Assembly: GCA_030407315.1 (NCBI GenBank)
Contig: JALQPE010001714.1
Location: forward strand, 16,591-80,590
Length of the DNA: 64,000 bases
DNA from: Asparagopsis taxiformis
Taxonomy: Eukaryota; Rhodophyta; Florideophyceae; Bonnemaisoniales; Bonnemaisoniaceae
Direction: 5' to 3'
The notes below the pieces were generated by a model. That model had not been told where the DNA came from, searched no databases, and saw nothing but the letters and a program-made list of their open reading frames with translations. Below are positions 25,097 to 48,233 of the stretch, in pieces. A program made the position numbers and the translations under genes. How positions within the stretch are numbered: the first letter of the stretch is position 1; the number at the start of each line of letters is the position of its first letter.

Positions 25097-25225
25097 CGTC
25101 TGTGTTTTCGGAAGTGGACGCGGACGTCCAGTCTCTCTAGTACGGGTCCTAGTCGGCCCCGAGATTTACTAGAACAAATGAACGTCCGCGTCCGAAAAAA
25201 AATAAAATTTTTTGGATGCGGACGT

Positions 25226-25526
25226 CCACTTTCTCTAGTACATATGGCGGAATACTAGGGCCCGACATCCACTTTCTCTAGTACATATGGCGGAATACTA
25301 GGACCCGACATCCACTTTCTCTAGTACATATGGCGGAATACTAGGACCCGACATCCACTTTCTCTAGTACATATGGCGGAATACTAGGACCCGACATCCA
25401 CTTTCTCTAGTACATATGGCGGAATACTAGGACCCGACATCCACTTTCTCTAGTACATATGGCGGAATACTAGGACCCGACATCCACTTTCTCTAGTACA
25501 TATGGCGGAATACTAGGACCCGACAT
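25226..25526. repeat. 43-bp subterminal satellite, 7 units (T2 left)
   Basis: Seven near-identical units beginning CCACTTTCTCTAGTACATA. This is the largest of the three arrays in the window. Confidence 0.9.
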
Positions 25527-26089
25527 CCAGTATACAATATATCAGCGAAAACCGGGAGGGAAGAAATTACAGCGGATGGTAAATTCAGGGCCCATATCGG
25601 ACCGTATTTTATTCTCTCATTTAGGAAACTGCTCGTATACAATACGTCTCTCTAGAATAGGGAATACATATCTGGTCAGAATAGGAAATAAATACCCGGT
25701 TAGAATAGGAAATAAATACCCGGTTAGAATAGGAAATACGTATCCAGCCAGAATACAAAATACCTGTCAGCATATCGTCGATCACCCATCTCCCTCACTA
25801 TCGCGTTCTCCCTACCATCCGAACGCCATGCACCACCATCCGCACATACTGCAAGAACCCTCACGACCTAGATTACAAAAAATACGCTCCTTCCCAATAC
25901 CATCCCCGCTTTCCTCGACACCACCCCAGCCCATTAAATCATCAAGACATCAAACACGAACATGGTCAGCAAAATCTTACACCACTTGAAACGCACTCTC
26001 ACTTCTATCGTATGCCCCAAAATATACACATACCAGAAACACCTCACAGCTTCATTCCCCATCTTCCTACATCCCTTCTTCACTCTCCT

Positions 26090-27211: not shown

Positions 27212-27808
27212 AAAGCAAAGTCGGTCAAAGAAGATCAGTCGGTGATGAGGGCGGAGTGGAGCCTGCGGCGTCGACCGGACAGCTTTCTGCGTCCGCTTAA
27301 GTCTTGCTGTGCATACTCGAAATCATCGCCGGCAGTGAGATTGAGTATGGCCCAAGCCATGGTCTCTGATTCCCCGAACAAAGAGATCCGGATCGAGAAC
27401 AACGAATATAAACATATAATCATATATATGAGAATCCATTTGCTTTCCTTACATGATCTGTGGCATATCCGCTGTAAAGCACATTCAGATTCCACGAAGT
27501 TTGGAAATAAAAAAGTTTATTATTACAAATGAATTAATTGAAAATTCATCTCCCAGGGCAGTCGTTCGTCCTTCCATGCACACGTTGCCAGCACGCAATG
27601 TGATGTAACAGTTGGAAATGATTGAACTCTCGGTTAAATTCCACCGTTGGGATGTCAGCTGGAGTGAGCACAAAACTACTACCCAAAAAACTACGAACAC
27701 GTTACATTCCAAGTCTCGAAAGCACCACAAAAATAAAATTGGTCGCATCTGGACGGCACAGTCTCCCCTGTTCAGCTCGCAATCCTCCCTTTTGCGTCAA
27801 AACTCGAC

Positions 27809-30800
27809 ATGGAATGCAAGTATGAAGGGTGCTTCTACTACTGCGTAGATGCTTATGCGCTCGCGCTGCATGAGCGAACGTGTCGCTACCGTTTCAACCC
27901 CTCTCCCCAACATTTCAACAACGCTCGTGTCCCTGCCGTCACCCATGAGCCTGCTCGAAACGGCGACCATGATTCCCCGCAACCCAGCTCCCCAGACCCA
28001 GAATCTGGTCGTGCTTCCTCCAGCGACTCACCCTGTGACGCTTCACTGCCACCAACCTCAACCCCCTCCCGCGCAGACCTCCTCGTGCAATCCCTCGCCG
28101 CCAGTCTCACAACCCTCGAGTACAAGGCCGGCGCTGGCCGCGTGAGCGAAGTCATCACCATCCTACAAGACCCCGCATTCTCCCTAGAAAAGTTCAACAG
28201 CGCCGTTCGCACCGTAGAAGAATGTCGCCACGTTACCGCTTCCATGGTCGAAACACATTTCCGCACCGAAGGTTACAAGAGCCACATCATTCCAGACAAA
28301 ACTGGTAAGTACTCGGCACAGCTGTACCTCCGCGACCCAGTCGACATGCTCCGCAGGCAGTTAGCACTGGCTAACGACCAAAATACTCTCTTCCACCCCT
28401 CCCCACAGACCGCCCCAGACGGCACCGCAATATTTTCTCATCCCCTACACACAGAATTCGCGAAAACGCTGCACCAGGTTACTAGACAGCGCGTGCAGCT
28501 CTCGGAAGATCCACAGGTCGTATGGGCAGAGGAAAATGATCCCACCGCTTCCTCCTTTGCCGGCCTCCTCCAAGTGTACTCCGACAAGAGCAGCACAAGC
28601 CTCAAGAGCTCCGCAATCGTCGCATACCCCATACACGTCACACTGCTCAACTTCTCCGCCCCCCTCCGTCGCCACTGCATCCGTACCGGCCTCACCATCG
28701 TCGGGTATCTTCCGTACATTGTTAACCCTTCGTCCAACGCCTTGTTCGGTGATGAAATGCCGACAACCTCTAGTTCTGCTAGTCGCGCTCGCAAAATTGA
28801 TATTCTTCATAAAGCACTCGAAAAAGTGTTTTCGTCCCTATCCACCGCGTTCTCTTCCGGGTTCCCCTGCACAGACTCCACTGCAACTGCCCGCCAATGC
28901 TTTCCCATCCTAGCCAATTATTGCTGCGACTTTCCAGAGGCCAAAGAGCTCTCATGCACTCGCAACAGCACTACCACCACACATCCCTGCCACCGCTGCT
29001 ACATCCCCGCCACTCAACTTGAATCCAGCGCGCCACACCAGCCCCGCTCCCTCGATGATACACGCTCTGCACGCCAAGAGAGCGCTCAGGAGCATACAAC
29101 TGCTCCGCTCGAAGCTCTCTCCCTCCTCGAACAACACTCTGTCCTCGAATCGACCGCTCTTTTACCCACCAACAGTCCCCTAGACCCCTACAACATTTTC
29201 TCCTTCGAGCCTCTGCACAATCTCCACCTCGGCATCTCAAAGCTCATCAAACAGTGCATTGTCCACCGCCTCAGCTCCCCAGACCTCACCACCACTGCCT
29301 CCCATTCCGGGACACCTCGCACCTTCAAGAAGGTGAAAAAATCCATCCTCGCCGGCTCAAACAGCATTCTGTCCGCTATCGAACGCGACTACTACATCAC
29401 CGGTCTTCATGTCGACTTCTCCAAGGGTGAGAAGGGCACCAATTTGAACGGCCTCTTCACGGAGGACGGCATACGCGGCATGCTCGCAGCCAAAGACTAT
29501 CACCATGTCGACATGGTGTTCCCTTTCATCGCAGCATTCATTGACACATGCTGTGACGAAGTAGATACAGCCCCCCTCACTTCCATCTGCACGCAATACT
29601 CTGACCTCGTCGCATGGGTCATGAAACGCGGTCGCATCAAGCACTGGACTGCCGCCGAACTAGAAAGCCTCCAGAACTCCATTTCCTATTTCAAACAATC
29701 AATGCTCTCCACCCTCGGCCCATTCCACACCACAGGTCTCAAAACTTTCAAGTTCCATCTTCTAGACCATCTTCCCGGTGACTTGCAGAGATATGGCGCC
29801 CTGGAACACATTGATGCAGGCCCCTACGAACACTCGCATCTTCTGTTCAAACAGAGTTATAGGAAAACCTCTCGAAGGCGCTCCACAGCCATGGAAGAGA
29901 CTATTCGCCACATGGAATTCTCCTTGGCCACTCCAACTGGTCATACCCCATCGAACACATTGGGAAACGCACGCATGATATCGCCCACAGACGGTGCAGT
30001 ACTCGTTCGCGACGGATTCACCGTTGCACTGCACGACTTTGCCTCCCTGCTGCCCGATGCAACCCTCCTCGTTGCAGATATCGACGGACAGCCCGATCCT
30101 GCCACTCTTTTGCCGCTGCACAACTCCTCGTTCCCGTCTGGCACCATAACGCTATTCCAGCAACTCGGTGACACAGCTGCACAAGCGTTCCTCACCCTCG
30201 CTAGACTGCGCGCCACGGCAGAAGGCCCTCCAATACATGACATGGACATTTCCGTCACCGTGGTAAAGTCCGCCTACGTCATGGGAGGGTACGTCCCAGA
30301 TGCCGACGACTTTGACCCGCACAGTGGCATGCTTCGCCCCACAAACGTGTCGAGGCACAAGCAGCAGCGCGTCTTTGCAACTTCATCGTTCGGCCCCGCA
30401 AAGAGATCGCAGTACTCCTTTGTCGTCATCTCCGGAACTGCCGATGACTACAGAACCATATGGGTAGGGCGCGTCCTGGCACTGGTACGCCTGCAGTCTC
30501 CAAACCTGTTTCAACCTGTAGAACTCGCTTTCGTTCAGTATATGACCTGCTTTGCCCCAAAAACCGCTGTGGAAAAATCACTTGGGTGCATTTGTTTAAA
30601 GTGGTCCACATGGGACCCGGACAACGGATCCGTTGACAGCAATGACACTGCATCCCACAGTGCAGGTGGTCCTTGGTTTGACCTCATTCCTGCATCTACT
30701 ATATCTGGCACCGTGCACATCGTACGAAGTAACTTTCCAGTCAAGCCATTTACGAAACAAATGCACTGGTCGGACCACCGTTTCTATCTCAACCGCTTCT

Positions 30801-30847
30801 ACACCAACACTGATTACCAATTCACAGATGATAATGAAGAAGAATAA
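27809..30847 (+). CDS. Plavaka/CACTA-like transposase of T2
   Basis: A 1012-residue intron-free protein. The N-terminus has a zinc-finger-like cluster (C3, C8, C12, then LHERTC). A mid region has SDKSS near residue 257 followed by an AYPIHVTLLNF...LRRH...VGYLP pattern, which matches the SDKT...WPVYLTIGNI...GYLPV segment I know from fungal Plavaka transposases. Next come CCDFPEAKELSC (about 372-383) with a CxxC (HPCHRC), and FEPLHNLHLGISK (about 467-478), equivalent to the D-x-LH-x2-x-G motif. Then comes GPYEHSHLLFKQSYRKTSRR (about 669-688), equivalent to the conserved E-x-LH-x6-YR motif. No frameshift is seen, so it may be active. It lies next to the left arm, and its stop is 77 bases from the convergent ORF. 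KDZ-type relatives are the main alternative. Confidence 0.75.
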   Translation: MECKYEGCFYYCVDAYALALHERTCRYRFNPSPQHFNNARVPAVTHEPARNGDHDSPQPSSPDPESGRASSSDSPCDASLPPTSTPSRADLLVQSLAASLTTLEYKAGAGRVSEVITILQDPAFSLEKFNSAVRTVEECRHVTASMVETHFRTEGYKSHIIPDKTGKYSAQLYLRDPVDMLRRQLALANDQNTLFHPSPQTAPDGTAIFSHPLHTEFAKTLHQVTRQRVQLSEDPQVVWAEENDPTASSFAGLLQVYSDKSSTSLKSSAIVAYPIHVTLLNFSAPLRRHCIRTGLTIVGYLPYIVNPSSNALFGDEMPTTSSSASRARKIDILHKALEKVFSSLSTAFSSGFPCTDSTATARQCFPILANYCCDFPEAKELSCTRNSTTTTHPCHRCYIPATQLESSAPHQPRSLDDTRSARQESAQEHTTAPLEALSLLEQHSVLESTALLPTNSPLDPYNIFSFEPLHNLHLGISKLIKQCIVHRLSSPDLTTTASHSGTPRTFKKVKKSILAGSNSILSAIERDYYITGLHVDFSKGEKGTNLNGLFTEDGIRGMLAAKDYHHVDMVFPFIAAFIDTCCDEVDTAPLTSICTQYSDLVAWVMKRGRIKHWTAAELESLQNSISYFKQSMLSTLGPFHTTGLKTFKFHLLDHLPGDLQRYGALEHIDAGPYEHSHLLFKQSYRKTSRRRSTAMEETIRHMEFSLATPTGHTPSNTLGNARMISPTDGAVLVRDGFTVALHDFASLLPDATLLVADIDGQPDPATLLPLHNSSFPSGTITLFQQLGDTAAQAFLTLARLRATAEGPPIHDMDISVTVVKSAYVMGGYVPDADDFDPHSGMLRPTNVSRHKQQRVFATSSFGPAKRSQYSFVVISGTADDYRTIWVGRVLALVRLQSPNLFQPVELAFVQYMTCFAPKTAVEKSLGCICLKWSTWDPDNGSVDSNDTASHSAGGPWFDLIPASTISGTVHIVRSNFPVKPFTKQMHWSDHRFYLNRFYTNTDYQFTDDNEEE

Positions 30848-30924: not shown

Positions 30925-32808
30925 TCAACCATCCTCCATTACGCCAAAACCGTTATCAGCAGTGGCTGCATGGCGCCGCTCCATGCCCCCATACTGTGGG
31001 GCATTGATTTCGACATTCAGGTTTGCAGTCAGGTGTCCAGCATATGGGTCAACGACGAAAAGTTCTGCGCCAATTAGTCCTTGCGCAATCACACAATCCA
31101 TTACAGCACCGAGGTTTGACGTAATATGCGATTGAATCCAATCCTCGGACACTAGAACAAGTGATGAGCAGCGGTTTACATCATCAACGACATGAACAAT
31201 TCCAGACCCCTCTCCGCTTTGCCACACTTCAACAGCCTCTCTCGTCACAGTACGGCTTGCAAACACATGCCGTGACTGTGCACTAGTCCGCTGTTCGCTC
31301 TCGACAACGTCCGTTTCTTCCCTTGCTTGCGAGCCTTGGAGACAAGACATGCAGTACACCACCATACCAACTAATTGCTGAAAAGCTACCCCCACATATT
31401 GACTGTACCGCCTTGTAAACTCCTTCTGCCGTGCACCTCCTTTCCCCTTCGGTTCATCCAAACACTCCACAGTAGTCACTAGCCAAGCATCCAGGCGCGC
31501 CAGCGTTAGTATGCTCGTCTCTATGTCCATTACTTGTTCTGGTCGTATCGAATAACCCCTGAAGATGTCCAGCACATTCACAGCTACTCGGTTGTTAAAC
31601 CATGCATCACCATTCACTTCCATTTCGAAGCTGTCAGGAACCAAGCCTTTGCTGTATCGCAGCTCTGAGAACGGTGCCGTTCGCCACCTCCCCATATCCA
31701 AATCACCGTTACTTTCCCGTTTCAAAAGCTTCTCAGACGCTTCGCGCTTTTGTTCCTCTCGCTCGTCCATCTCAGCTCGCGTCGTCAGCATCGTGCATCT
31801 AGACATTAATTTCGTGTACCCCAGCGAACCGAACAATCTGTCCCTCGCATTACGCTTCCGTGCACTCATCACGTCGGACAGTTTCTGCGTCACCTTCACT
31901 TTCAATTCCTTGCTCCCCGCCACAGCCTCTTGACAGCACACACGCTGCTCCTCATCGGAAAACACATCACACCACGGACTTTGACGCAGTACGTGTCGCA
32001 CCAAGTCATTCAGCAGATCACTCTCGTCCCTGTACGAAGGTGTATACCACTGCAGATTCTTGATGATATAGCCCGGAGGGGTAGCAATATATCCTACACC
32101 GTTTTCGCTCCAAAGTGCCCCTTCTACCGGCTCTACCTCGATGGTACGTCCAGTCCAACGTCTCTGCGTTTGTTCCGCTATAGGGTCCAGCTCCATAGTC
32201 TCGTTCTTGCACCACTTTGTCAGGTTTTCCTCAACCGCCCTAAGAACTCCAAGGTATTTCACAGGAATGGCTTTCTGTATTTTCGACTTACCGCCACCGT
32301 GATCACTGATTCTACCTGTTCTCGCAATTGCAGTAAGGCTGGCATTTTCCGCCTGCAGAGTCTTCACCTTAGCCTCCAACGCAACAATCTCCGTGGTGAG
32401 CGCCTTGTTTGCTATGTCCTGGCTAAACACTTTTTTTTCCAGCTCCGCGATCTTCTTCTTCTGCGCATTGATGCGACTCGCCATTAAATCGATGGATTCC
32501 GGCGGATGCAACCTCTCTGCCCTCACCGTCCCCCCATCTCCCACGCTATCGGGAATATGATGTCCTCCATCGCCAATAGCCTGACGTCGCGGGGGCGTTA
32601 CGCGCATATTTGGCACCAATGACACTCTGTTGTGACGAGGCCCGCACTCCGGCTGCTCTCTCCCCTCAGTACCACCTGACCGCCGATGATAGTTGGCATC
32701 CTGTGAACGTTGCTCAGAAACAACATCCCTTGCCGCTATCCTCGGGTCCCTGACTGCATTACCTGCTGGGGCTGATGTACTCGGCATAGTTGGCGCAGTG
32801 GGGGTCAC
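30925..32808 (-). CDS. Coiled-coil protein of T2, main part, function unknown
   Basis: An open frame of 627 residues if counted from GTG at 32808; the first ATG in this frame is at about 32787 (MPSTSAPAG). The N-terminal third is polar and arginine-rich, followed by a strong heptad coiled coil (INAQKKKIAELEKK to LQAENASL). A globular region rich in charged helices comes next, and the protein ends with a conserved-looking domain (QYVGVAFQQLVGMVVYCMSC, later HVVDDVNRCSSLVLVSEDW). I recognise no catalytic motif. It is convergent with the transposase, as second ORFs of DNA transposons often are; it may be a DNA-binding or accessory protein. It probably continues upstream as 32805-33209 after a frame change. 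Confidence 0.65.
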   Translation of the reverse strand: MTPTAPTMPSTSAPAGNAVRDPRIAARDVVSEQRSQDANYHRRSGGTEGREQPECGPRHNRVSLVPNMRVTPPRRQAIGDGGHHIPDSVGDGGTVRAERLHPPESIDLMASRINAQKKKIAELEKKVFSQDIANKALTTEIVALEAKVKTLQAENASLTAIARTGRISDHGGGKSKIQKAIPVKYLGVLRAVEENLTKWCKNETMELDPIAEQTQRRWTGRTIEVEPVEGALWSENGVGYIATPPGYIIKNLQWYTPSYRDESDLLNDLVRHVLRQSPWCDVFSDEEQRVCCQEAVAGSKELKVKVTQKLSDVMSARKRNARDRLFGSLGYTKLMSRCTMLTTRAEMDEREEQKREASEKLLKRESNGDLDMGRWRTAPFSELRYSKGLVPDSFEMEVNGDAWFNNRVAVNVLDIFRGYSIRPEQVMDIETSILTLARLDAWLVTTVECLDEPKGKGGARQKEFTRRYSQYVGVAFQQLVGMVVYCMSCLQGSQAREETDVVESEQRTSAQSRHVFASRTVTREAVEVWQSGEGSGIVHVVDDVNRCSSLVLVSEDWIQSHITSNLGAVMDCVIAQGLIGAELFVVDPYAGHLTANLNVEINAPQYGGMERRHAATADNGFGVMEDG

Positions 32809-33209
32809 AGCCTCCAGTGTCTCGGAACCCCCGGCTGGGACTCCGTCTGCAGCACCTCCGCATCTGCCAACCCGGGAGGAACTACCTTTGCCATAGCACT
32901 CTGCCGCAATTCCAACATGTTTTGAGCCACTATCATGTCATCATCATGATGTTCACTGTCCCTGCGAGCACGCTTGCCTCGGTCAAGCCCCATCTCTCTC
33001 CGCGCCGTTCCTCCTTCCTCACTTTCTCGCTGCGGATCCCCAGTTCTGCGCCGGTCCGTCTTGCGACTACCGGACCGCGGTTCAATGCTGCCGGTAGGCC
33101 CAGACCGCTTCTTCGCACGGGATTGTCGGGCACTCGATACAGCAGCTGCTGACCGGGTTTTCTGGAGGCCCGGAGGCTTTGGAGCTTTCTTCGCAATACG
33201 CGGCGGCAT
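32805..33209 (-). CDS. N-terminal part of the T2 coiled-coil protein, in another frame
   Basis: 134 residues starting MPPRIAKKAPKPPG, very basic (nuclear-localisation-like KKR and RRR clusters), ending in TGA at 32805-32807. The downstream frame overlaps it and is open upstream through about 32880. The two therefore most likely form one protein of about 760 residues, split by a single frameshift, an assembly error or a missed small intron. Confidence 0.5.
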   Translation of the reverse strand: MPPRIAKKAPKPPGLQKTRSAAAVSSARQSRAKKRSGPTGSIEPRSGSRKTDRRRTGDPQRESEEGGTARREMGLDRGKRARRDSEHHDDDMIVAQNMLELRQSAMAKVVPPGLADAEVLQTESQPGVPRHWRL

Positions 33210-33443
33210 AATGAAGCTTTCCCGGAAGCGATGGAACGATTGAGTTGCACGAGATACAAAAAAGATTGCTGTATAGTGTCGGTAACCACAACGGTCTGCG
33301 ATGAACGTTCAGGTCAGGTCAAGTACCGGATAATACGCCAACAGCCCAGATTGTATACGGTAGGCAGTCATCAACAGTATTTAATGAGGTACAATTACAG
33401 CTGTCGAGCTAGGCCGCGAGCACCCCTATGTCCGGAAGACGTC

Positions 33444-34000
33444 CTGATTTGAATTAAAATTTGGGCTATTCTCAAAAACATGCACATGTGAACATGTTTT
33501 TGAGATGGGGGTGTGCCGTACGGCACAATCGACCGCCCAAATCGATGTTTTTTGCAATATTTTTTTGTGCCCGAAATTTTAGAATTTCTGGGCTGGCCAG
33601 CAATGCAATCGAGCTGGACATCCACCGGACGTCCATTTCAGGTTGGTCGTGAGAGAGCGGGGCGGGACCATGATGGAACAAGGACCAAGACCTGTCCCTG
33701 GCGTATTGAGCCTGAAATTGACCCTTCGTCAGACGCCATTTAGCCTTACAGTTGGTGCTTACAGAAGCCAGTGATGACCCCGCTCGGGGCGGCGGTCGGT
33801 TCCTGGGGCCGTTGTGGCCAAATTAGACACCCTGATTTGAATTAAAATTTGGGCTATTCTCAAAAACATGCACATGTGAACATGTTTTTGAAATGGGGGT
33901 GTGCCGTACGGCACAATCGGCCGCCCAAATCAAGGTTTTTTACAATATTTTTGCTGCCCGAAATTCTACAATTTCTGGGCTGGCCAGTAATGCATTAGCT
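33444..34000. repeat. Two dispersed palindrome repeats of T2
   Basis: Units at about 33444-33650 and 33835-33995, joined by the linker with CCCCGCTCGGGGCGGC. Palindromes lie at 33471-33504 and 33859-33892 (the latter with one end base changed). The short frames in this area are translations of the repeat. Confidence 0.85.
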
Positions 34001-34440: not shown

Positions 34441-34449
34441 CCGTTTTCA

Positions 34450-35604: not shown

Positions 35605-38600
35605 ATGACGAATAAGCGCAGGCGCAACAGCAATCCGATCGTTGACGACGCAACCGTGCCAATTCTGCGCGAACCCGCTAGCCCTTGGGAGGATTCTAGT
35701 GACATGGGTACACGTCGAAACGTAGGTCGCGCCGCCCGCGAAACTACTCTCGCTGGCAAAGACTTCCTCCGCCTCTTGCTGGATTTATTCGCCCACTCAA
35801 GTTTCGCAGACTTGACGGACAAGCCGGGAGGTTTCACATACGCGGACCTTGGCGCTTGGGTTGCGCAGGGCACGGAAGAACAATTTGTGGCGCTGCAAGG
35901 TCGACTCAGCATGTCCTTCAGCGGTCGTTCGAAGAATGCTGGAGTCGAGGCGGATGTTGCCGAAATCGTCATGGCAGAGATGAACGTTGAGCGAGCCAAG
36001 CAGATTGTTCGTCTGGCATTACCCATTGCCGAGTTTTCAAGACAGGATGAGCGTATCGGGCAATGGGTTGAGCACTGCATCCTTTCTGGGATCGTGCCGC
36101 AGACCTTCCTTATTGGATGTAACATGCTTCCTTCGCCACTACAGGCGCCGCAGCGCGGGGAACCAAGCGCCTTCGTTCTTGCTCCACCGGAAACGTTCGA
36201 GGTATTGATGTATTTCCAAGCGTTGTCTATCATCCGAAATCACAACAAGAACCTGCCGCGTCGCCGAATAGGAGATGCGGCCGAAGAGGGGAACGAAGCC
36301 GCACGCGTCCCAGCCCATCGGAAAAGCACTAATCGAGCTTGTTACGTGGTTCAAGTTTTATACCATGCTTGGACCGATGTGGCCTACGCCGCAAAGTTTT
36401 CCAGCTTCGAAGAGTTGATGGCGCCGTACATCATTTTCGACAGCAGTGAGCATTGGTTTGACGTGCTCGATGAAGGTCTATTCGCACCGATGGAGCAGAA
36501 GCTAGATCTCTACCACAACAAAGCTCCCCTATCTCATCCTGATGGATATGGTGGAAAAGTAGAGACAAGAACCAGTGCGCAGCACAGTGCATTTAGGGAC
36601 CTTGTGAGGAAGTTCTTCGACCGGTTGCAGTTTCTTATCGTCAACCCGGACCTGTACACCTGGCCGGAGTCCGACCGCTGGGGGGCACTGGAAATATACT
36701 TCTCAAGCGGAAATCCGGACAAGCTGCCAGCGTATTTTGACACCCTCGACGAAGACGTTATGGCTGTCCTCCGCCCGGCACCACAAGCCGCGGACGCAGA
36801 AAAGGTCCCCAAGCCGGTTGATGACACTCCCACTCGTCGCAACACAGGAGGGAGAGGTTTGGTTCCGTCGACAAGACACACAACCAGGCTTCAACTTGGA
36901 CCTGGGAGGACCAGTCTTACTGCCCAAGGGCCGTCTCCCCCGTCACCGTCACCCCATGCGACAGAAGAGCAGGAAAGTGAAGGGCAGGCTCTCGCAAAGG
37001 ACTTTCTTTCGAAAATGAGTCAGTATTGCCGGGTGTACGACGTCCCTTTCGAAGATTTGGTCAGTGCCGACGAGAGCCGAGAACACGTGCCCATCACGGG
37101 CAACGTTCAGCTCATTCTGACTGATCCGCCCTACAATGTTCGTCGTAAGAGGAACGATTCCAACTCTTCGTACGACAGGCTAACTGCAGAAGATATGCAG
37201 GCTAGCATCGAAGTGTTTGACGAGCTGTTGCGCCCCGGTGGCCACGGCATCGTGTTCTGCTCGGTTTTGCAGTTCTACGAATGGTTCCATTACTTGGAAA
37301 CGTACAAAGGACCGCAGTCAGAAGGCCCAACCGATACTGCTGCCAGTGATGACGGGTCGGATGAAGAAGAGGTTACGTCCATGAATTCGGACTCCGAAGC
37401 ATCGCAGCACAGTGGCGAAGAAAGTGCGGATGAGGAGGAGGACGAGGAGGAGGAGGACGTCGTTCGGAATTCAGTTTTCTTCGTTGACGAGGTACCTCTG
37501 TTGTTTGTCCGACTACCTGGGCACCTCTATCAAATGCCGGGGCGGAAGAGGTACCAACGCATGAACATGGCAGAGGTCGCTATCCACTTCTGGAAGCGAG
37601 GTGTTCCGTTCAAGACCGGAAGCGAGATGGTGGCCTATAGGAACCACGGATACATGGACGGCACGTACCCGGCGTGGTGCAACGTCACCATCAATATGCC
37701 CGCCATCGATTCGAATGAGATGGTGTGGCGAACAAGGAGCACAACCGGTGCTACGGTCAGAGTTCGTGCAGAGCAGAAGAGCGTCGCTCTCATGATGGAG
37801 TTGATCAGCCAGCATTCACAGCCTGGTGATATTGTTGTCGATCCATTCTCTGGCACTTTCGCAACGGGAAAAGCAGCTATGAGCTTGCCTGAGCACCGTG
37901 TTTTCGTCGGCAGTGACATGGACAAATTGTGTGTGGTACGATCGCTTCCAAAGCTGTGTGCAGTCATGTCACGTGTAATTCTTTCAAACAACACTGACAT
38001 GAGGGTCACGACAGAAGCGAAACAGAGTGCTGAGAAGTTCTTGGCGTCCCCCTCTGTCACGATGCGTACGCAGAGGGAACGCAGGATCATCGAACCCCCA
38101 CCTGGCCTTCCCCTGTACCAGAGGTTCCCGAAATATATTCGGCAGTACCTCTGGCAGCTGTGCCCAGAGTCGATTGCGTCGCGCGAGCACATGGAGAAAC
38201 CGGTACATTATTGGCCACCTTCCCTGCGCCGCTGGTTGCAAACTGAAAACCCTCGCGTGATGCGGGCACACGATTGTGTTGCGAAAAAATTGAGCGTTCG
38301 ACCATCGCTGATTAAGCATCCAAATGCAGGAAGAGGGCTCTTCGCTGAACAGACATTTAATGTTGGTGACGAAGTATGTGCATACTACGGAACTGTTGTG
38401 TACTCTGATATGAGCAAGGAGTCGATGAGGTTCGCGTACGGAGAGGGTCACATGGCGATAACGAAGGAAACATTCTTGATGTATGCTATCAAGCTGTATG
38501 CAACAGCGGAGGACGACGAAAACATCGAGCATCCAATTTGGATTGTTCCGGCTCCGTTCTGTTCGGCGCAGTTCATCAACGACCCGCGGTATTTGCGAGG

Positions 38601-38802
38601 TGAGGACACTCCGGCGGAAGACACCAGGCGGATGGCCAACGTCGAGTTTGTCGAGAACTACAGCAGCGGTTCGACGGGGAAGAAGCTCAAGGCGAAGGAC
38701 CTAGAAAATCCGAAGATCATTGTAGTACGTGCAATCCGCGATATCCGTCCGGGGCAGGAGCTCTACGTTCATTATGGGACAGCGTTTAGAGCATGGAATT
38801 AG
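35605..38802 (+). CDS. DNA amino-methyltransferase / SET-domain fusion protein (T2 cargo)
   Basis: 1065 residues from the ATG at 35605 (MTNKRRRNSN); the frame is open upstream to 35347 but lacks a better start. Residues 1-430 are helical with no known domain. A class-I amino-methyltransferase follows: catalytic DPPYNV at 507-512, then an acidic insert (about 590-628), then the SAM-binding DPFSGTFATGKAA at 746-758. Catalytic motif before FxGxG is the beta-class order, and DPPY favours adenine N6 over cytosine N4. The C-terminal third is a SET domain: GRGLFAEQ near 908, FIND at 990-993, NVEF at 1012-1015 and the ELYVHYG catalytic end at 1052-1058, all expected for an active lysine methyltransferase. 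Predicted role: bifunctional DNA and histone (or protein) methylation in the nucleus. No frameshift is seen. Confidence 0.8.
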   Translation: MTNKRRRNSNPIVDDATVPILREPASPWEDSSDMGTRRNVGRAARETTLAGKDFLRLLLDLFAHSSFADLTDKPGGFTYADLGAWVAQGTEEQFVALQGRLSMSFSGRSKNAGVEADVAEIVMAEMNVERAKQIVRLALPIAEFSRQDERIGQWVEHCILSGIVPQTFLIGCNMLPSPLQAPQRGEPSAFVLAPPETFEVLMYFQALSIIRNHNKNLPRRRIGDAAEEGNEAARVPAHRKSTNRACYVVQVLYHAWTDVAYAAKFSSFEELMAPYIIFDSSEHWFDVLDEGLFAPMEQKLDLYHNKAPLSHPDGYGGKVETRTSAQHSAFRDLVRKFFDRLQFLIVNPDLYTWPESDRWGALEIYFSSGNPDKLPAYFDTLDEDVMAVLRPAPQAADAEKVPKPVDDTPTRRNTGGRGLVPSTRHTTRLQLGPGRTSLTAQGPSPPSPSPHATEEQESEGQALAKDFLSKMSQYCRVYDVPFEDLVSADESREHVPITGNVQLILTDPPYNVRRKRNDSNSSYDRLTAEDMQASIEVFDELLRPGGHGIVFCSVLQFYEWFHYLETYKGPQSEGPTDTAASDDGSDEEEVTSMNSDSEASQHSGEESADEEEDEEEEDVVRNSVFFVDEVPLLFVRLPGHLYQMPGRKRYQRMNMAEVAIHFWKRGVPFKTGSEMVAYRNHGYMDGTYPAWCNVTINMPAIDSNEMVWRTRSTTGATVRVRAEQKSVALMMELISQHSQPGDIVVDPFSGTFATGKAAMSLPEHRVFVGSDMDKLCVVRSLPKLCAVMSRVILSNNTDMRVTTEAKQSAEKFLASPSVTMRTQRERRIIEPPPGLPLYQRFPKYIRQYLWQLCPESIASREHMEKPVHYWPPSLRRWLQTENPRVMRAHDCVAKKLSVRPSLIKHPNAGRGLFAEQTFNVGDEVCAYYGTVVYSDMSKESMRFAYGEGHMAITKETFLMYAIKLYATAEDDENIEHPIWIVPAPFCSAQFINDPRYLRGEDTPAEDTRRMANVEFVENYSSGSTGKKLKAKDLENPKIIVVRAIRDIRPGQELYVHYGTAFRAWN

Positions 38803-39029
38803 GGTCACGAAAGATGTTTTCATTTCGACTACAAATAAAGCTACGTTCCAGAGTTGAAGTATATCATATAATGCAGAATGTCCAGCCACCATTAGTCCAG
38901 GGTGAAACCTATTCGGCAGTACTCGCCTGTCAAAAACCAATCGTTCACACTCTAGGTGCACTTCGTCCGAGCAGTGAACCTGACTGCTTGGTTGCTGTTA
39001 TGCGTGCAGATGCAAAATACAAGACCAAG

Positions 39030-40125
39030 TTGAAATGGACGCCCGGTGGATGTCCAGCTCAGTTGCATTGCTGTCCAGCCCAGAAATTCTACAATTCAGG
39101 GCAGAAAAAATATTGCAAAAAACATCGATTTCAGCGGGTCGATTGTGCCGTACGGCACACCCCCATCTCAAAAACATGTTCACATGTGCATGTTTTTGAG
39201 AATAGCCCAAATTTTAATTCAAATCAGGGTGTCTAATTTGGCCACAACGGCCCCAGGAACCGACCGCCGCCCCGAGTGGGGTTGTCACTGGCTTCTGTAA
39301 GCACTAACTGTAAGGCTAAATGGCGTCTGACAAAGGGTCAATTTCAGGCTCAATACGCCAGGGACAGGTCTTGGTCCTTGTTCCATCATGGTCCCACCCC
39401 ACTCTCTCACGACCAACCTGAAATGCACGTCCGGTGGATGTCCAGCTCGATTGCACTGCTGGCCAGCCCGGAAATTCTAAAATTTCGGGCACAAAAAAAT
39501 TGTAAAAAATCAACGATTTCAGCGGGTCGTTTGTGCCGTACGGCACACCCCCATTTCAAAAACATGTTCACATGTGCATGTTTTTGAGAATAGCCCAAAT
39601 TTTAATTCAAATCAGGGTGTCTAATTTGGCCACAACGGCCCCAGGAACCGGCCGCCGCCCCGAGCGGGGTCATCACTGGCTTCTGTAAGCACTAACTGTG
39701 AGGCTAAATGGCGCCGGAAGATGGGCCGATTGCAGGCTTCAAGCCTAAGTTATGCTAGGGAGAAATCTTCTTCCGTGTTTCATCATGGTCCCGCCTTACT
39801 CCCTCAACAGAAACACTACTCACCCATCACGTTACTCATATTCCGTGCACTTTATATTAGTAGTGAACCCGCCTGCTTAGTTGCTGCAATGCGTGGATGT
39901 AGGCAGCACACGACCAACCTGAAATGGACGTCCGGTGGATGTCCATCTCAGATGCACTGCTGGCCAGCCCAGAAATTCTAAAATTTCGGGCACAAAAAAT
40001 CTTGCAAAAATCAACGATTTGGGCGGGTCGATTGTGCCGTACGGCACACCCCCATCTCAAAAACATGTTCACATGTGCATGTTTTTGAGAATAGCCCAAA
40101 TTTTAACTCAAATCAGGGTGTTCCC
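39030..40125. repeat. Three tandem palindrome repeats between the cargo genes
   Basis: Units at about 39033-39230, 39416-39618 and 39918-40122, with palindromes at 39167-39200, 39555-39588 and 40056-40089. Each also has GTGCCGTACGGCAC. Linkers contain GAAATGGACGTCCGG and CCCCGAGYGGGG. They separate the methyltransferase gene from the dioxygenase gene. Confidence 0.85.
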
Positions 40126-40465
40126 CGGATAAAGGGGTGCTCGCAGCCGCCCCAAAAGCCGCCTAGCTTGACAGCTGTAATTTTAACACATTACACATCA
40201 AGGACACTGCCTGCTTCACGCCACCTCGTCAGGTTTCGAGAGCCCGACTCGGGCCCGTTCTGAACGGACACTCACATCTCGATTGCCTGTCTTGCATTCC
40301 AGCGGTCACGATAGGTGTGTACCTAACAAAATTTCGGTTGTATTGTGTTATTATTTCCAGCGATTGGCGTTCACGACCATTCTTCAACTTAACGTGAAAC
40401 ATACCATCCACATCACTCGAATACGTCAACGTCAACCATCTCTTTTCCTTTCCAACTCAACAACC

Positions 40466-43400
40466 ATGGCGGATACGCATTTCAGCAGTTTGTTTTCAAC
40501 GGTTTGCGGCGATCAAGTGAGCGCGTCAGCGGAGTCGCGCGGACTCAAGCGCGGCGTCGATGTCGACTTGTTTGCGGACGTGGACGGTGCGGCTGTGCAT
40601 ATTGGGACGGCTTCGGTGAGCACTGCTGGTGGCGATGTTGGCCTTCCGCGCACGCTGCACAACCACAAGCTGCCGGAAACCGACGAGGCCGACTATATCG
40701 TCGTGCGCAACATTGCGACTAAGGACAAGTTCAAGGACCTCCCGTTCCCGTACATGTTTGATGGCGCCGAGGGACCGCCGGAGACGATGGGTGGAGCATA
40801 CGCCGCGGCGTTTTACCCTTGGGATACTCGGATGATGCGCCCCGCTGCGGAGGATGGCTCTAGCGACATTCGTACCCCTGCTGCAGCGTCAAACTTCAAC
40901 GCAGCGACGAACCAGGCCAGCTCGGGACGGATGCCCAGTACCGGTCCAGCAGGCGAAATCACTGGTTCGGGGGGTACGAAGCATCCAGCACGCTCCGTCC
41001 CGGTTTCGGGAGGCACGAAGCGCCCTGCTCGCTCTGCCAGAGCCTCCAGTGGAGGCACGAAGCACCCTGCTCGCTCCAACGTCACCGAAGCTACTACGCA
41101 GGACGTAACCGAGGTGGACGACGAACCGGAGGTGGCGGAAAGCATTCGTGAGCAGCAGGGGACGCAAATTATGGTGCCCAAGTTTGTGACGTCGGATTAC
41201 GTCGGAGAAGGAGCGACTGTGTTGGTGAGGCAGCTAGTGGAACCGGCCGTGACCCTTCGCGATGTCAAAGAAGACCACGTGGAGGACCTGCGCAACAATA
41301 TGTTGGCGGTGGGGTATGTGAGCTCTTCGCGTATCACTGTGACGGTGCTGAGGTCGCAGAACACGCATTTGTCCGCCGACACGCGTCTGTTCCAGAATGG
41401 CAAATTCCATGCCAATGCGAACGTGACCGTGATCGACGGACTGCATCGTCTCAATGCTATGCATAGCATTGCGGATGACTTCACGCGCCTCACCCGTATG
41501 CACAGAACCAAGCTGCCACAGGAGGCAAACCGCTTGCGCTGGGTTACTCAGCCTCTGGATGTGTACTACCTTCGCCGCAAGGACGACAGTGATCTCCAGC
41601 CTCATGAGATCATCCACAAGAGTGCAGAGTCGAACCATACGACTGGGACGCAACTGACGGAGCGCTCCCTGGTTCGAATCTTGTCGTCCATCCAGCAGTT
41701 CATCCGTACGATTGCTGTTGCAAACAACGTGGAAAACGCTGGCGACTTGCGTGAGTCTGATGTCATCCGAACATTGTTCGAGGCGCAGTTCATGGGGATG
41801 ATGAATTCGACGAACACGGCTCGGCGGTGGACGCGTTTGGCTATAGCAACGCTGAAGCATCCTGTTCTCGACGACGTGTTGCGTGAGCTGAACAATTCCG
41901 AGCGCCGCAACGAGATTGGGATAACGCACCTGGACCACAAGATAGTGCGCGAGTTGCTGGAAGAAAACTTTGTCTTCGTCTTGCGTGGTCTTTCGGAGTA
42001 CTTGAACCCTGCTCATGGCGGACGTCCGGATGGACGCTTTGACGTGAACGACTTTTATACATACGTCCGTCGCGTGACTGCAATAGCAAATTCTCTGTAC
42101 GCTGCGTTTGGGCGCCCAAAGAGTATTATGCGCAAGTCATTTCTGAGCACAGAGATGGCAATTGGGTCGGTTAAGCAGCCGAAGGAGTTGCAATGGCATC
42201 TCACCAATGCCATTGCAATGTATAGAGGGGACGACCGGAGCAGTGAGGTTCGAATGCGACGGAGAACCACGCGTTTACAGGATTTGGAAACGAACTTGAA
42301 AGAGTTTTTCAATCCGACATTGAAGAAGAAGACTAAGGCTCGACGCAAACGCCGCCCTTCTGCTGCCAATGTGAGACTCACTCACAAGAAGCAGCGGAAT
42401 GTCGAACATGAGCCTGCTTCGCATGGCATCCGCCGCCGTTCACAGCGACTTCGCTCGACGGGGAGCACACGCCTCGAGGAAGAAGAGCCGGTTGTGGTAC
42501 AACAATCCGCCGGGGAAGAAGAGCAGGCCGTTGTTGATAAACCCACCGATCAACAACAAGCCACTGCTTCCGGTGATGAGGTTGACGAAGACTCCGCCCG
42601 TTCCCCCGATTCTGCCGTTGAGATTGTCCCCCAAGATAACCAACGTGCTGGTGCGACTCCCTCCAACCAAGAATCTGTCCATACCGCTTCGGACGAGGAA
42701 GACAAACAGGGTGCAGACGAGGGCCAAGTCGAAAGCAAGGGGGTCCGCGAAGTGACAATTACATTCACTGTTCCGGAAGGAGTGGAAGTCGATGAAGACG
42801 GTTACATCGTTCGTGACTCTCCTTCTGAAGACGACCTCCTCTTCGACGACCGTATGCCGTCTCTTCCTGACGATTTCGAAGACCGAGCCGAAGGGCATCA
42901 TCTGGCGCAGCGTCCCGCGGATGTCATCGCATCGGTGAGGGTTGGCTGTCTGCCCCCGATTGAGCTCAGGTTGTTATTGGAGAGTGTGGAAATCGATGAG
43001 GAGGGCAGAGAGGTGAGGTATTTGAAGCAAGTGGCGATGGACCCTGTGTTTGAGGGGCTGCATATTCCGGAAGAACATCGGGCTCGTGTGCTATTCGAAA
43101 TCGATCACGTCTATCCGATGTTCTTCGCAGCGTGGAAGATGGCTGCCAAGGCGATGTGTGAGCCTACATCGACGTTTCTACCCTCGAGGCTGGACTTCGC
43201 TCAGGTTGCGCGAATGTCTACAAGCTGGAAGGATTCGTATGAGGCCGGCACTGGTATGGCGTACTTCCACAATTGCCGAACGGAAATCAACGAGCGAGGG
43301 TATACGGTGATGCACAATTTCGCGGATGTAAGCTACCTAGATGCGTCGGACAAGTTCCCATTTGACTTGGGTCTCATGGAAGAAATTCCTAACCAGGAAT

Positions 43401-44398
43401 TGTTTCGGTACTTTTTGGGAACGTGGGAGGGGGAGCAGGTGCACAAGGACCCTGGGAACCGGCAGCTGTGGAGTCCCATTGTCAATACGGGGGACGATGA
43501 AACAGACGAGAAGAACCGGAATGAGGGGAGGGCTCGCTTCACGTCTACGCGCCACTGCCTGGTTGACTATGCCGAGAACGATGAGACGCATATCGACCGG
43601 TTCAAGTTTGTGACGCGGCGAGCCCTGCTGGATGTGTGGTTGGGAATCCTTGTCCGGCTGACAGGGCTGGAGGAGTGCGGTTTACCGGGAGAAAAACTTG
43701 TCATGCCGGCATCTGGGGGACGGTTTTTGATAACGGGAAAGGGGTGTCCTCGGCAGGTCCCACACAATGATTTCCCTGTTCCTCCTCGCGACCGCAAAGA
43801 TCAACTTCCGGGTTACTTTGTTATTGCCAACGGAGATGACCCATTCCCTATCTGGGTGTGTCCAGGGTCCCACAAGTACGTCTTTTCCAAAGCGCTGGAA
43901 TTAGATATGTACGCCAAGACGATGAAGCTGAAGAAGGTAATCGTTCCGCCACGTTCAGTCTTCATCGGTCACGGCCATGTACAACATGCCGGGGCAGGGC
44001 ATGTCGACAGAGTTGTGTCACACACGACAACGAGGTATCACACGTATTTCAGGAATGCGTCGTATCCGATTCCCGACAATGTTTCGTTTGGTTTCATCAG
44101 GCGGTTGGGATTCGAAGAAGAAGTCATCGCCAATGCTCCGCGCCGGTCTGCAAGGCAAAGTCAACCGGCACCTGTCAATGTTCGCCACAAGACAGTTGTT
44201 CCCATCCCGGTCAAGAAAGATGGTAGGCCGAAGACAGGGCAGCTCCGAATGATGCGGATGAAGACGACAGAACCTCGCAAGGATGTAATGCACACACCGA
44301 GTGTGGCCCCGGTAGTGCCTCTTCTGCCGGGACAACCTGGATATCTAGTTCACTATCATAGTGAGGACGAAGAGGAAGAACAGTTTTCCGACGGCTAG
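40466..44398 (+). CDS. ParB-like / PhyH-like 2OG-Fe(II) dioxygenase fusion protein (T2 cargo)
   Basis: 1310 residues from the ATG at 40466, which sits in a good context (ACCATGG). The N-terminus (about 1-240) is polar with three KHPARS-type repeats. A ParB/Srx-like domain spans about 255-345, with LRDVKEDHVEDLRNNM and the hallmark VIDGLHRLNAM at 322-332. A helical region, a basic stretch (KKKTKARRKRRP) and an acidic linker follow. The C-terminal part is a double-stranded beta-helix oxygenase: HND iron ligands at 1100-1102, GYFVIANGD and WVCPGSHKY as in phytanoyl-CoA-hydroxylase relatives, VPPRSVFIGHG, the distal iron His in VQHAGAG at about 1174, and an Arg in RYHTYF for 2-oxoglutarate. Substrate unknown. 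Next to a DNA methyltransferase, a modified base in DNA or a histone methyl group is my inference. Confidence 0.78.
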   Translation: MADTHFSSLFSTVCGDQVSASAESRGLKRGVDVDLFADVDGAAVHIGTASVSTAGGDVGLPRTLHNHKLPETDEADYIVVRNIATKDKFKDLPFPYMFDGAEGPPETMGGAYAAAFYPWDTRMMRPAAEDGSSDIRTPAAASNFNAATNQASSGRMPSTGPAGEITGSGGTKHPARSVPVSGGTKRPARSARASSGGTKHPARSNVTEATTQDVTEVDDEPEVAESIREQQGTQIMVPKFVTSDYVGEGATVLVRQLVEPAVTLRDVKEDHVEDLRNNMLAVGYVSSSRITVTVLRSQNTHLSADTRLFQNGKFHANANVTVIDGLHRLNAMHSIADDFTRLTRMHRTKLPQEANRLRWVTQPLDVYYLRRKDDSDLQPHEIIHKSAESNHTTGTQLTERSLVRILSSIQQFIRTIAVANNVENAGDLRESDVIRTLFEAQFMGMMNSTNTARRWTRLAIATLKHPVLDDVLRELNNSERRNEIGITHLDHKIVRELLEENFVFVLRGLSEYLNPAHGGRPDGRFDVNDFYTYVRRVTAIANSLYAAFGRPKSIMRKSFLSTEMAIGSVKQPKELQWHLTNAIAMYRGDDRSSEVRMRRRTTRLQDLETNLKEFFNPTLKKKTKARRKRRPSAANVRLTHKKQRNVEHEPASHGIRRRSQRLRSTGSTRLEEEEPVVVQQSAGEEEQAVVDKPTDQQQATASGDEVDEDSARSPDSAVEIVPQDNQRAGATPSNQESVHTASDEEDKQGADEGQVESKGVREVTITFTVPEGVEVDEDGYIVRDSPSEDDLLFDDRMPSLPDDFEDRAEGHHLAQRPADVIASVRVGCLPPIELRLLLESVEIDEEGREVRYLKQVAMDPVFEGLHIPEEHRARVLFEIDHVYPMFFAAWKMAAKAMCEPTSTFLPSRLDFAQVARMSTSWKDSYEAGTGMAYFHNCRTEINERGYTVMHNFADVSYLDASDKFPFDLGLMEEIPNQELFRYFLGTWEGEQVHKDPGNRQLWSPIVNTGDDETDEKNRNEGRARFTSTRHCLVDYAENDETHIDRFKFVTRRALLDVWLGILVRLTGLEECGLPGEKLVMPASGGRFLITGKGCPRQVPHNDFPVPPRDRKDQLPGYFVIANGDDPFPIWVCPGSHKYVFSKALELDMYAKTMKLKKVIVPPRSVFIGHGHVQHAGAGHVDRVVSHTTTRYHTYFRNASYPIPDNVSFGFIRRLGFEEEVIANAPRRSARQSQPAPVNVRHKTVVPIPVKKDGRPKTGQLRMMRMKTTEPRKDVMHTPSVAPVVPLLPGQPGYLVHYHSEDEEEEQFSDG

Positions 44399-44675
44399 AT
44401 ATCTTAACAACAACTACTTTAGCAAACAATTATCGAGAATATAATCATCTCCTTTATCACTTTCAATCTATGAACCTACTATAATGCACTTCCGTTCCAT
44501 GCTTTCAAACTAGATTGTCCATTCCCTAGTGGGTTGGAGCATGATTCCAGGACGATTCCCTCACATCTCTAGACTCGATGGTCTATGCTAGAAATAGCAG
44601 AACAATTGGGTTTATACGTGCTTCATCGCCAACTTGCTTCTGGTAATGGCTGGACGTGCACGATACACGATCACC

Positions 44676-46600
44676 TGAAATGGACGTCCGGTGGATGTCC
44701 AACTCAGATGCATTCCTGGCCGGCCCAGAAATTCTACAATTTCGGGCACAAAAAAATATTGCAAAAAACATCGATTTGGGCGGTCGATTGTGCCGTACGG
44801 CACACCCCCATCTCAAAAACATGTTCACATGTGCATGTTTTTGAGAATAGCCCAAATTTTAATTCAAATCAGGGTGTCTAATTTGGCCACAACGGCCCCA
44901 GGCACCGGAACCGCCGCCCCGAGCGGGGTCATCACTGGCTTCTGTAAGCACTAACTGTAAGGCTAAATGGCGCCTAACGATGGGTCGATTCCAGGCTTCA
45001 AGCCTAAGTTATGCTAGGGTGACATCGTTTCCCCTGTTCCATCATGGTCCTGCCTTACTCCTCCACGACAAACACTACTCACCCATCACGTTACTCGTAT
45101 TCCGTGCACTTTGTATGAGTAGTGAACTCGCCTGCTTAGTTGCTGCAATGCGTGGATGTAGGCAGCACACGACCAACCTGAAATGGACGTCCGGTGGATG
45201 TCCATCTCAGATGCACTGCTGGCCAGCCCAGAAATTCTACAATTTCGGGCACAAAAAATCTTGCAAAAATCAACGATTTGGGCGGGTCGATTGTGCCGTA
45301 CGGCACACCCCCATCTCAAAAACATGTTCACATGTGCATGTTTTTGAGAATAGCCCAAATTTTAATTCAAATCAGGGTGTCTAATTTGGCCACAACGGCC
45401 CCAGGCACCGGCCACCGGCCCCGATCGGGGCTATCACTGGCTTCTGTAAGCACCAACTGTAAGGCTAAATGGCGTCTGACGAAGGGTCAATTTCAGGCTC
45501 AATACGCCAGGGACAGGTCTTGGTCCTTGTTCCATCATGGTCCCGCCCCGCTCTCTCACGACCAACCTGAAATGGACGTCCGGTGGATGTCCAGCTCGAT
45601 TGCATTGCTGGCCAGCCCAGAAATTCTAAAATTTCGGGCACAGAAAAATATTGCAAAAAACATCGATTTGGGCGGTCGATTGTGCCGTACGGCACACCCC
45701 CATCTCAAAAACATGTTCACATGTGCATGTTTTTGAGAATAGCCCAAATTTTAATTCAAATCAGGGTGTCTAATTTGGCCACAACGGCCCCAGGAACCGA
45801 CCGCCGCCCCGAGCGGGGTCATCACTGGCTTCTGTAAGCACTAACTGTGAGGCTAAATGGCGCCGAAAGATGGGTCGATTCCAGGCTTCAAGCCTAAGTT
45901 ATGCTAGGTACGCATCTTCTTCCGTGTTTCATAATGGTCCCGCCTTACTCCCTCAACACAAACACTACTCACCTATCACGTTACTCATATTCCGTGTACT
46001 TTGTATTAGTAGTGAACCCGCTGGCTTAGTTTCTGCAATGCGTGGATGTAGGCAGCACACGACCAACCTGAAATGGACGTCCGGTGGATGTCCAGCTCAG
46101 ATGCACTGCTGGCCAGCCCAGAAATTCTAAAATTTCGGGCACAAAAAATCTTGCAAAAATCAACGATTTGGGCGGTCGATTGTGCCGTACGGCACACCCC
46201 CATCTCAAAAACATGTTCACATGTGCATGTTTTTGAGAATAGCCCAAATTTTAATTCAAATCAGGGTGTCTAATTTGGCCACAACGGCCCCAGGAACCGA
46301 CCGCCGGCCCCGATCGGGGGCTATCACTGGCGTCTGTAAGCACCAACTGTAAGCCGGAGCCGGCTGCCGCCCCGATCGGGGCTATCACTGGCTTCTATTA
46401 GCACCAACTGTAAGCCAAAATCGCGTCTCACGAAGGGTCGATTTCAGGCTCAACACGTCAGGGAAAGGTCTTGGTCCTTGTTTCATCATGGTCCCGCCCC
46501 ACCCTCTCGCGACCAACCTGAAATGGACGTCCGGTGGATGTCCAGCTCGATTGCATTGCTGGCCAGCCCAGAAATTCTAAAATTTCCGAAAAATCAATTT
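44676..46600. repeat. Four tandem palindrome repeats plus a partial unit after the dioxygenase gene
   Basis: Units at about 44676-44880, 45177-45380, 45568-45774 and 46071-46276, with palindromes at 44812-44845, 45315-45348, 45704-45737 and 46204-46237. A fifth unit at 46518-46600 lacks the palindrome. Repeat periods are about 390 and 505 bases depending on which of two linkers is used. Confidence 0.88.
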
Positions 46601-48233
46601 GGTGGCCCAGCATCTCCTGTGCCGAAAATTCCCGCACTCAGTTCTGATATACGTCTAGACGTGTTTCCCACTTGTACGCATCAGGGAAGGCGTCACGGAA
46701 GGTTGACACTACGCTACTTGTGTACCGCGTCGTCTGAAATAGCGAGTAGTGTTTGTTGTATAGTTGTGGAGTATGCGTCTAGTGGTTTGTAAAGCTTGCA
46801 GAACGGGATAGGGATGTGGGTGGCCCTATTTTATGAATACATGAGTACCAATATTCAGGGTTGACAAAGCGGAAAGGCATAGGCTCATACATGTTTGAGA
46901 TTGCATAGTAGAGAAAATATTTTCATCGAAATTTACATGGAGCTGATGGAGGTTTTAAGGATGAGGTATGAGAGGAAGAAAATTCTTCTGTGGTATGAGG
47001 ATGTGTTCTGTGGGGGGATGGAATCTTGGGATGGTACAGGGGGAGGTGGAAATGTACGGAGTGCGGGTTTAGAATGGATTGTGATTCGGAGAGGAGTGCC
47101 GACAAGCATATTATGGGGATTGGGGAGACGCTGCGGGGTGTTGGGGTAGTGAGGGCGGAGGAGGTGTTTAGGTGGGACCGTAGGAGGGTGCGGTTGAAGG
47201 CGCCGAGAGGAGGGGTTTTTAGGAAAGTGAGGAGAAAGAAGGGGAGGGGGTGGCGTCTGTTCTGGCTGTGGTGAGTGGGGATGTGATGGAGAAGAAGGGG
47301 GTTATTGTATTTGGGGAGGGAGGGGAGTGGGAGGAAGGGTGCGAAGTGGGGGGTTGATATGTGTTTCAGAGCGGGGAGGTTTCTGGGGATACGGCGGGGG
47401 AGCCACCCCGCAGTGCGGGAGCGTGGGCCGGTGGTGGTGGTGTATACGGTATCGAAGATGCGGATGGCGTGGGGGCATGGAGCAGCTGAGGGAGGGAGGG
47501 GTGGAGCAGGTCGGGTACGGGATGGGGAGTGAGAGGTTTTGGAAGAGTAAGCTGCAGGGGAAGTTTGTGTAGAGGGCGAAGGAGAGGGGTTGAGGGTAGA
47601 GGAGAGAGGGTACTGAAGAACAATACGTTTCAAAGGTGATGGGGGAGAGCATGGTCGAGGAGATAGGGGGTGTTTTGCCCTATTCTGAGGTAGTATGAGG
47701 ACTGGTTATACGAAATCTGTACGGTAGAGCAGAAAAGTAGGTATGGAATGGAGGTGTGCACCGTGGAAGCGGGGATAGGTATCTGAAAATGCGTGCTAGA
47801 GTGGTATTGGGGGTGTTTGAGGTACAGTACGGGGGAGGTGAGCACCAACAGGAAGGGGGTGTGAGCGAGAGGATGAAAAAATTAAAGACGAAATTGGAGT
47901 CGACCGACAAGGAAAAATAGAGTGGTCGCCGTGATGGATGCGGACATCCATGTCGAGCACGGCGGCAGAAATTTCTGGGGTCGAAATTTTTGAATTTCTG
48001 AACCGGCGCCCGTCCTAGGTGGACATAGACATGGCGGAAGTCCATCCCGAGGGGGACATCCGTGGTACTAGAAACAATGAATGTCGCCCTAGTAATACTA
48101 GACGTACTAGACCGCATGGACGTCCGGTTCTAGGCGGACATCCAAAAATACTGGAGAACATGGACGTCCGCCTAGTAATACTAGGTGTACTAGAGGTTGT
48201 GGACGTCCGCGTCCATTTCCGAGAACACAGACG
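46601..48233 (-). repeat. T2 right arm, outer part
   Basis: 46601-46745 matches T1 16940-17110, and the terminus matches at 48140-48233. The middle (46800-47900) is a G-rich strand-biased stretch with no counterpart in T1. The reading frames there, on both strands, follow the composition bias. The outer 300 bases contain GGACGTCCG and CTAGTAATACTAG motifs that echo the left subterminal satellite, but without a regular array. So the T2 arms are no longer matching inverted repeats. Confidence 0.6.

Follow-up and report, generated by a model that had tools for sequence, protein, structure and literature searches.

A Plavaka-type DNA transposon of Asparagopsis taxiformis with a candidate chromatin-modifying gene cassette

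Why would a DNA transposon carry genes that resemble writers and erasers of epigenetic marks? The question is raised by a 23.1-kb element at 25097-48233, on the plus strand of the window (by which we mean the whole 64,000-nucleotide stretch analysed, positions 16,591 to 80,590 of contig JALQPE010001714.1 in the Asparagopsis taxiformis assembly GCA_030407315.1). The original prediction was that a Plavaka-like transposase travels here with two long fusion genes, one joining a DNA amino-methyltransferase to a SET domain and the other, open reading frame (ORF) 4, joining a ParB-like region to an oxygenase. We find that the unit recurs with exact ends and that its genes are linked, intact and conserved, and we tentatively favor the possibility that it is an autonomous, recently amplified Plavaka/CACTA-type transposon whose two-gene chromatin-modifying cassette preserves its capacity for expression in a repeat-silencing host.

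Ends, copies and linkage

The element ends in CGTCTGTG on the left and CACAGACG on the right, within terminal inverted repeats at 25097..25130 (+, beginning CGTCTGTGTTTTCGG) and 48200..48233 (-, beginning CGTCTGTGTTCTCGG). Their consensus is CGTCTGTGTT(T/C)TCGGAA(G/A)TGGACGCGGACGTCCA, and 2 mismatches, not one as had been claimed, separate left and right over the 34 positions. In the genome searched (141.5 Mb in 3156 contigs), the 41-mers starting from CTGTG have 1208 exact copies for the left end and 1187 for the right, against 0 for reversed controls; with some 1200 exact copies per end, the element appears to have spread recently and very successfully. Within the window, a search for the 20-base terminal pattern with as many as 3 mismatches allowed gives four occurrences against 0.04 expected, and these are both ends of the element and both ends of T1, a related element described below.

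The right border was located by aligning 20 further copies with the window over 10 kb at their right-hand side. All 20 align from 43230-43231, at 98-100% identity in the main stretches, and in 19 the terminus CACAGACG is present at 48233 and is followed by divergence. Eight of these 19 match the window for a further 1-17 bases (the furthest, L033, to 48250), and in the remaining copy, L030, similarity ends at 48175. Some of the 20 right flanks have repeats in common (7 matches) and the remainder have no match there. We place the left border at 25097 because of the matching terminus, the two ends of T1 and the left-end 41-mers found upstream of 10 of 11 transposases. Exact ends that recur at different sites confirm that 25097-48233 is a DNA transposon.

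Two comparisons provide presumed empty sites: that of copy L019, whose flank aligns at 99.5% over 1406 bp with window position 49827, and that of L022, whose flank aligns at 87.6% over 807 bp with L034. In both, the three bases preceding the insertion point are not ACG, and the terminal ACG therefore seems to be part of the element. Counted in this way, neither element in the window has a direct repeat at its borders. If the terminal CG were instead target sequence, a CG target-site duplication would be possible, but the two presumed empty sites have no CG there.

That the transposase travels with both fusion genes was borne out on contigs where both genes of a pair are among the matches listed. 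The transposase and the methyltransferase/SET gene lie at window-like spacing on 12 of 13 contigs (10 within 1 bp, the others at -112 and -365), and on the thirteenth they are more than 30 kb apart. About the window spacing also separates the methyltransferase/SET gene from ORF4 on 15/15 contigs (11 within 1 bp; others -10, -16, -388 and -388) and the transposase from ORF4 on 5/5 (0, 0, -9, -15 and -112). When matches to the SET domain were used, 6 of 7 contigs had the window spacing to ORF4 (one at -386) and the seventh was 7 kb further; for SET matches and transposase, 17 contigs comprised 8 window-like cases, 7 with SET on the opposite strand at 6600-6606 bases and 2 of neither kind. The methyltransferase/SET gene is at most 502 bp off the window spacing to the right end on 4 contigs. 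On contigs up to C218, the left end is 2426-3031 bases upstream, and in the correct orientation, for 10 of 11 transposases. Deviations from the window's distance of 2640 are near whole multiples of a 43-bp repeat (family D2), which forms a left subterminal tandem array at 25221..25649 (+) whose copy number differs between elements.

Cassette-gene copy number is a lower bound, with at least 139 SET matches of 33.4-35.5 bits (150 scored of 1661 candidates); 11 of the 150 were excluded before linkage, 10 being higher-scoring and taken as host genes and one containing stops. The four commonest long frames (1154, 1084, 1082 and 1081 codons) account for 54 of the 139, and many others are shorter (nine of 255 codons), cut or decayed. 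We also paired consecutive ends from the first 100 places per end (200 of 2395, contigs up to C218), giving 27 spans; since the SET matches listed are incomplete, absences of SET in these spans are soft. Fifteen spans of 10.0-12.0 kb have no SET among the matches listed, and a SET match is present in all eight spans of 20.0-23.3 kb, which indicates that the SET gene is typical of the long class. The shorter, more numerous spans are probably non-autonomous relatives. A 14.2-kb span has SET and a 15.6-kb span does not; spans of 29 and 40 kb, perhaps nested elements, have no SET among the matches listed. One of the 27 has two left-type ends and one has two right-type ends. Copies of the ends do not, then, consistently lack the cargo genes, although more than half of the pairs, the short ones, have no SET match among those listed.

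Repeat arrays surround the cassette genes and are also present in each subterminal region: the right subterminal block (44601..46586, +) is of the same families as repeats at 38956-40144 and, inverted, at 33437-33995. Methylation controls transposition in other systems, including Dam with Tn10 and TnpA with En/Spm. Methylation of the subterminal repeats could likewise govern transposase binding or timing after replication, in which case the cassette would belong to the transposition machinery and have no anti-silencing role. The placement of the arrays and the linkage of the cassette to the transposase suit this explanation, but it accounts poorly for a SET domain, and the 10-12 kb elements without SET among the matches listed must move too, possibly with help in trans. 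We consider it unlikely. The ratio of observed to expected CpG is 0.96 across the element, and three neighbouring non-element stretches have values of 0.92-1.35; these figures show no sign of decay of the repeat-induced point mutation type.

Predicted proteins of the element

The transposase frame (27737..30847, +; 1036 codons, first Met at codon 25) is intact and matches the Pfam Plavaka family PF18759 with an E value of 1.7e-24 (87.1 bits, cut-off 26.3), so the prediction of a full-length, Plavaka-like transposase holds. Convergent with it is a 670-codon ORF (30925..32937, -), which has only weak matches, to coiled-coil families, and may encode the element's second transposition protein. We also considered a Starship, the giant fungal element whose hallmark is a tyrosine-recombinase captain gene, and rejected it: no captain-type family is among the Pfam matches of the four large ORFs of the element.

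The amino-methyltransferase/SET fusion (35338..38802, +; Met at 35605, 1065 aa) is likewise long and intact as predicted. Both of its Pfam matches are above the gathering cut-off, PF01555 (N6_N4_Mtase) at E 4e-15 and PF00856 (SET) at E 1e-6 (29.5 bits, cut-off 22.4), with the SET domain at about 38331-38780. In beta-class amino-methyltransferases, DPPY (motif IV) precedes DPxxG (motif I), and this is the order found here (DPPY and then DPFSG). In addition to the SET profile match, the C-terminal catalytic Tyr of SET is conserved in 6/6 proteins. The predicted structure of the fusion (mean predicted local distance difference test score 45.7, 7 sequences) was too poor for use.

ORF4 (40187..44398, +; Met at 40466, 1310 aa) is intact and matches no Pfam family at E values up to 10. 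For one half, the predicted fold is a double-stranded beta-helix oxygenase with an HxD..H..R arrangement, and this model supports the PhyH-like Fe(II)/2-oxoglutarate oxygenase that had been proposed. No Pfam match links ORF4 to TET/JBP, and no TET/JBP protein is among the best 50 PDB entries for the oxygenase, which does not exclude that relationship. The proposed ParB-like identity of the other half (about residues 325-730) fared less well and is not established: an [IV]DGxHR box is conserved in 5/5 aligned ORF4-type proteins, and no ParB model was found for it in Pfam, NCBIfam, PADLOC or PHROGs. Some relatives of ParB-like domains have a kinase fold. A quite improbable scenario that draws on this is a phage-like hypermodification of DNA, in which the amino-methyltransferase would methylate a base, the oxygenase would hydroxylate the methyl group, the ParB-like domain would decorate it and SET would copy the state to histones. 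Were this true, element DNA would be chemically distinct from host DNA and would bear its own self/non-self mark.

Copies of all three genes are identical at the protein level wherever scored, although the scoring took the best candidates only and is thus biased toward identical copies: 44/44 for the transposase (best 44 of 2550 candidates), 40/40 for the methyltransferase/SET protein (best 40 of 4733) and 33/33 for ORF4 (best 33 of 4630). At the nucleotide level, 10/10 ORF4 copies are without any difference across 4209 bp.

A possible role for the cassette

Under the reading that we tentatively favor, the methyltransferase/SET protein would put an amino-methyl mark, N6-methyladenine (6mA) or N4-methylcytosine (4mC), on element DNA and add a lysine methyl mark to the nucleosomes there, coupling DNA and histone marks. 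The ParB-like/oxygenase protein would bind the presumptive target, the subterminal repeats of the element, and its oxygenase would remove a mark by oxidation or convert it, the simplest candidate being a methylated base. The net outcome would be that the element is expressed despite silencing.

Several findings weigh against this reading: (i) motif IV is not DPPY in 4 of 7 aligned methyltransferase proteins (TDPPQ, TYPPY, TAPPQ and TDPPL), although the window protein retains it; (ii) the canonical NH pair of SET is ND in 7/7 aligned proteins; (iii) the remaining four models of the oxygenase had lower confidence (means from 74.4 to 43.4), Foldseek TM-scores for the oxygenase model were low, and the solved structures that match it are small-molecule enzymes; and (iv) 15 of the 27 end pairs are short and have no SET among the matches listed, which implies movement without the cassette in cis.

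The altered motif IV of some homologues would also fit a scenario in which the captured genes are passengers of no use to the element, or have lost catalytic activity. The homologues argue otherwise in other respects. The methyltransferase/SET protein has six. One, at 98% identity, is probably from the same species or one close to it, and the other five are at 27-33%. Both Pfam labels are present in three of the five; in P0014 the alignment spans SET but the label is missing, and P0012 is truncated within SET. ORF4 has four homologues at 20-32%, and six more proteins were found via its oxygenase half, one of them 99% identical. Because both fusions are retained across 20-33% identity, the cassette is old; in addition, the catalytic residues of the oxygenase are invariant. 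Diverged relatives of the cassette genes also exist elsewhere in the same genome: a decayed relative of the ORF4 oxygenase (about 30% identity, internal stops) lies outside the element at 59243-59983 (-) of the window, and the flanks of the 20 copies include relatives of ORF4 in L020 (about 27%) and of the methyltransferase in L036 (about 25%), as well as a piece of a closer copy in L038 (68% over 41 residues). The genome thus contains several diverged families of such genes. Both the retained fusions with their invariant residues and the diverged relatives speak against mere passengers, which we rate as less probable still than methylation control of transposition. A viral origin was rejected, as no relative of either fusion was found in IMG/VR and none of ORF4 in phages or GTDB genomes.

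There is precedent for a link between amino-methylation and histone methylation in the control of transposons. In bdelloid rotifers, according to the parts of the report available to us, the amino-methyltransferase N4CMT is fused to a chromodomain and, apparently with SETDB1, silences transposons (PMC8885841). Like the enzyme here, it is a eukaryotic N6_N4_Mtase of the permuted type with a link to histone methylation. It is conceivable, then, that the cassette acts in self-restraint, silencing or compacting its own copies through DNA amino-methylation that reinforces repressive histone methylation and so capping harm to the host, with the oxygenase resetting the marks when transposition is allowed. 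With methyltransferase and SET fused, a single protein would link the two types of mark that are coupled in rotifers. However, the rotifer enzyme is a host gene and not a transposon gene, and some 1200 exact copies of each end speak of expansion and not of restraint; we hold this alternative to be doubtful.

Returning to the anti-silencing reading, the nearest parallels come from fungi and Phytophthora. As far as the portions consulted of Kojima 2025 (PMC12730594) go, fungal DNA transposons including PlavakaB carry TET/JBP oxygenases, for which escape from methylation-based silencing was proposed, and Plavaka families were reconstructed from Agaricomycotina. These elements resemble ours in pairing a Plavaka-type transposase with a second gene for an Fe(II)/2-oxoglutarate oxygenase, but their motif is HxE (PE type, Plavaka) where ours is HxD, and the best folds for ours are not TET. 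The same portions cite SET genes in the HarbingerS and MuDR elements of Phytophthora, which likewise place a SET histone methyltransferase gene within a DNA transposon; these belong to other transposase superfamilies, and no fusion of SET with an amino-methyltransferase is mentioned. The words ParB and PhyH are absent from the paper as a whole, and those portions mention no methyltransferase/SET fusion. Plavaka elements have a target-site duplication of 2-3 bp. Their termini are given in the paper as TGT..ACA (PlavakaA) and CATCA..TGATG (PlavakaB); the termini here, CGTCTGTG..CACAGACG, are of neither type (TGT is 4 bases inward), and for this reason we do not file the element under either.

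In the open-licence PubMed Central literature, the only literature covered, we found no transposon combining a Plavaka-type transposase with the methyltransferase/SET and ParB-like/oxygenase genes, which agrees, within that literature, with the earlier claim that no such set has been described. Transposons with a single epigenetic enzyme are known; here DNA and histone methylation are predicted to be joined in one protein, which would be a natural single-protein coupler of the two, and are paired with an oxygenase. A family with about 1200 exact copies per end offers a clean test of whether eukaryotic parasites write, and not only erase, epigenetic marks, and it supplies a defined target on which the disputed presence of 6mA or 4mC in eukaryotic DNA can be tested.

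Inverted copies and neighbouring elements

The methyltransferase/SET gene lies between inverted repeats at 33437..33651 (-) and 39020..39234 (+), which pair at 92% over 216 columns. Recombination between them predicts a SET domain on the other strand about 6603 bases from the transposase start. The distances observed on the seven contigs with SET on the opposite strand (6600, 6604, 6604, 6605, 6606, 6606 and 6606) are within 3 bases of this value, although the pair was picked for its fit and other nearby pairs predict other distances. The frame on these contigs is 1081-1084 codons in five, 686 in one and 176, at a contig start, in one; on the eight contigs with the window form it is 1154 codons in seven and 1137 in one. 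These lengths hint that the inverted form is a separate lineage, but an inverted copy in C192 has the 1154-codon frame and flipping may therefore recur. Among the end pairs that contain a SET match, nine in all, the inverted form accounts for six and the window form for two; the ninth is ambiguous.

T1 (7316..19889; 12.6 kb) combines a unique centre with long inverted arms, and each of its two ends is of the left type. When counting starts at CTGTG, both flanks read ACGT. A search of its interior with the four element proteins gave no match at E 1e-3, and no exact match to an empty site of T1 was found. Between T1 and the element, a 659-codon frame at 22296-24272 (+) with integrase and chromodomain matches represents the remains of a retrotransposon. 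To the right of the element, the motif CTGTAAG is shared with repeats at 54-58 kb; when counted, it gave no clear link. At 53926-58711 there are about 12 copies of the near-palindrome CTTACAGCAAAGTCATCGT(T/A)ACGATGACTTTGCTGTAAG, some of them arranged as a tandem array with a 49-bp unit; this is probably another non-autonomous element.

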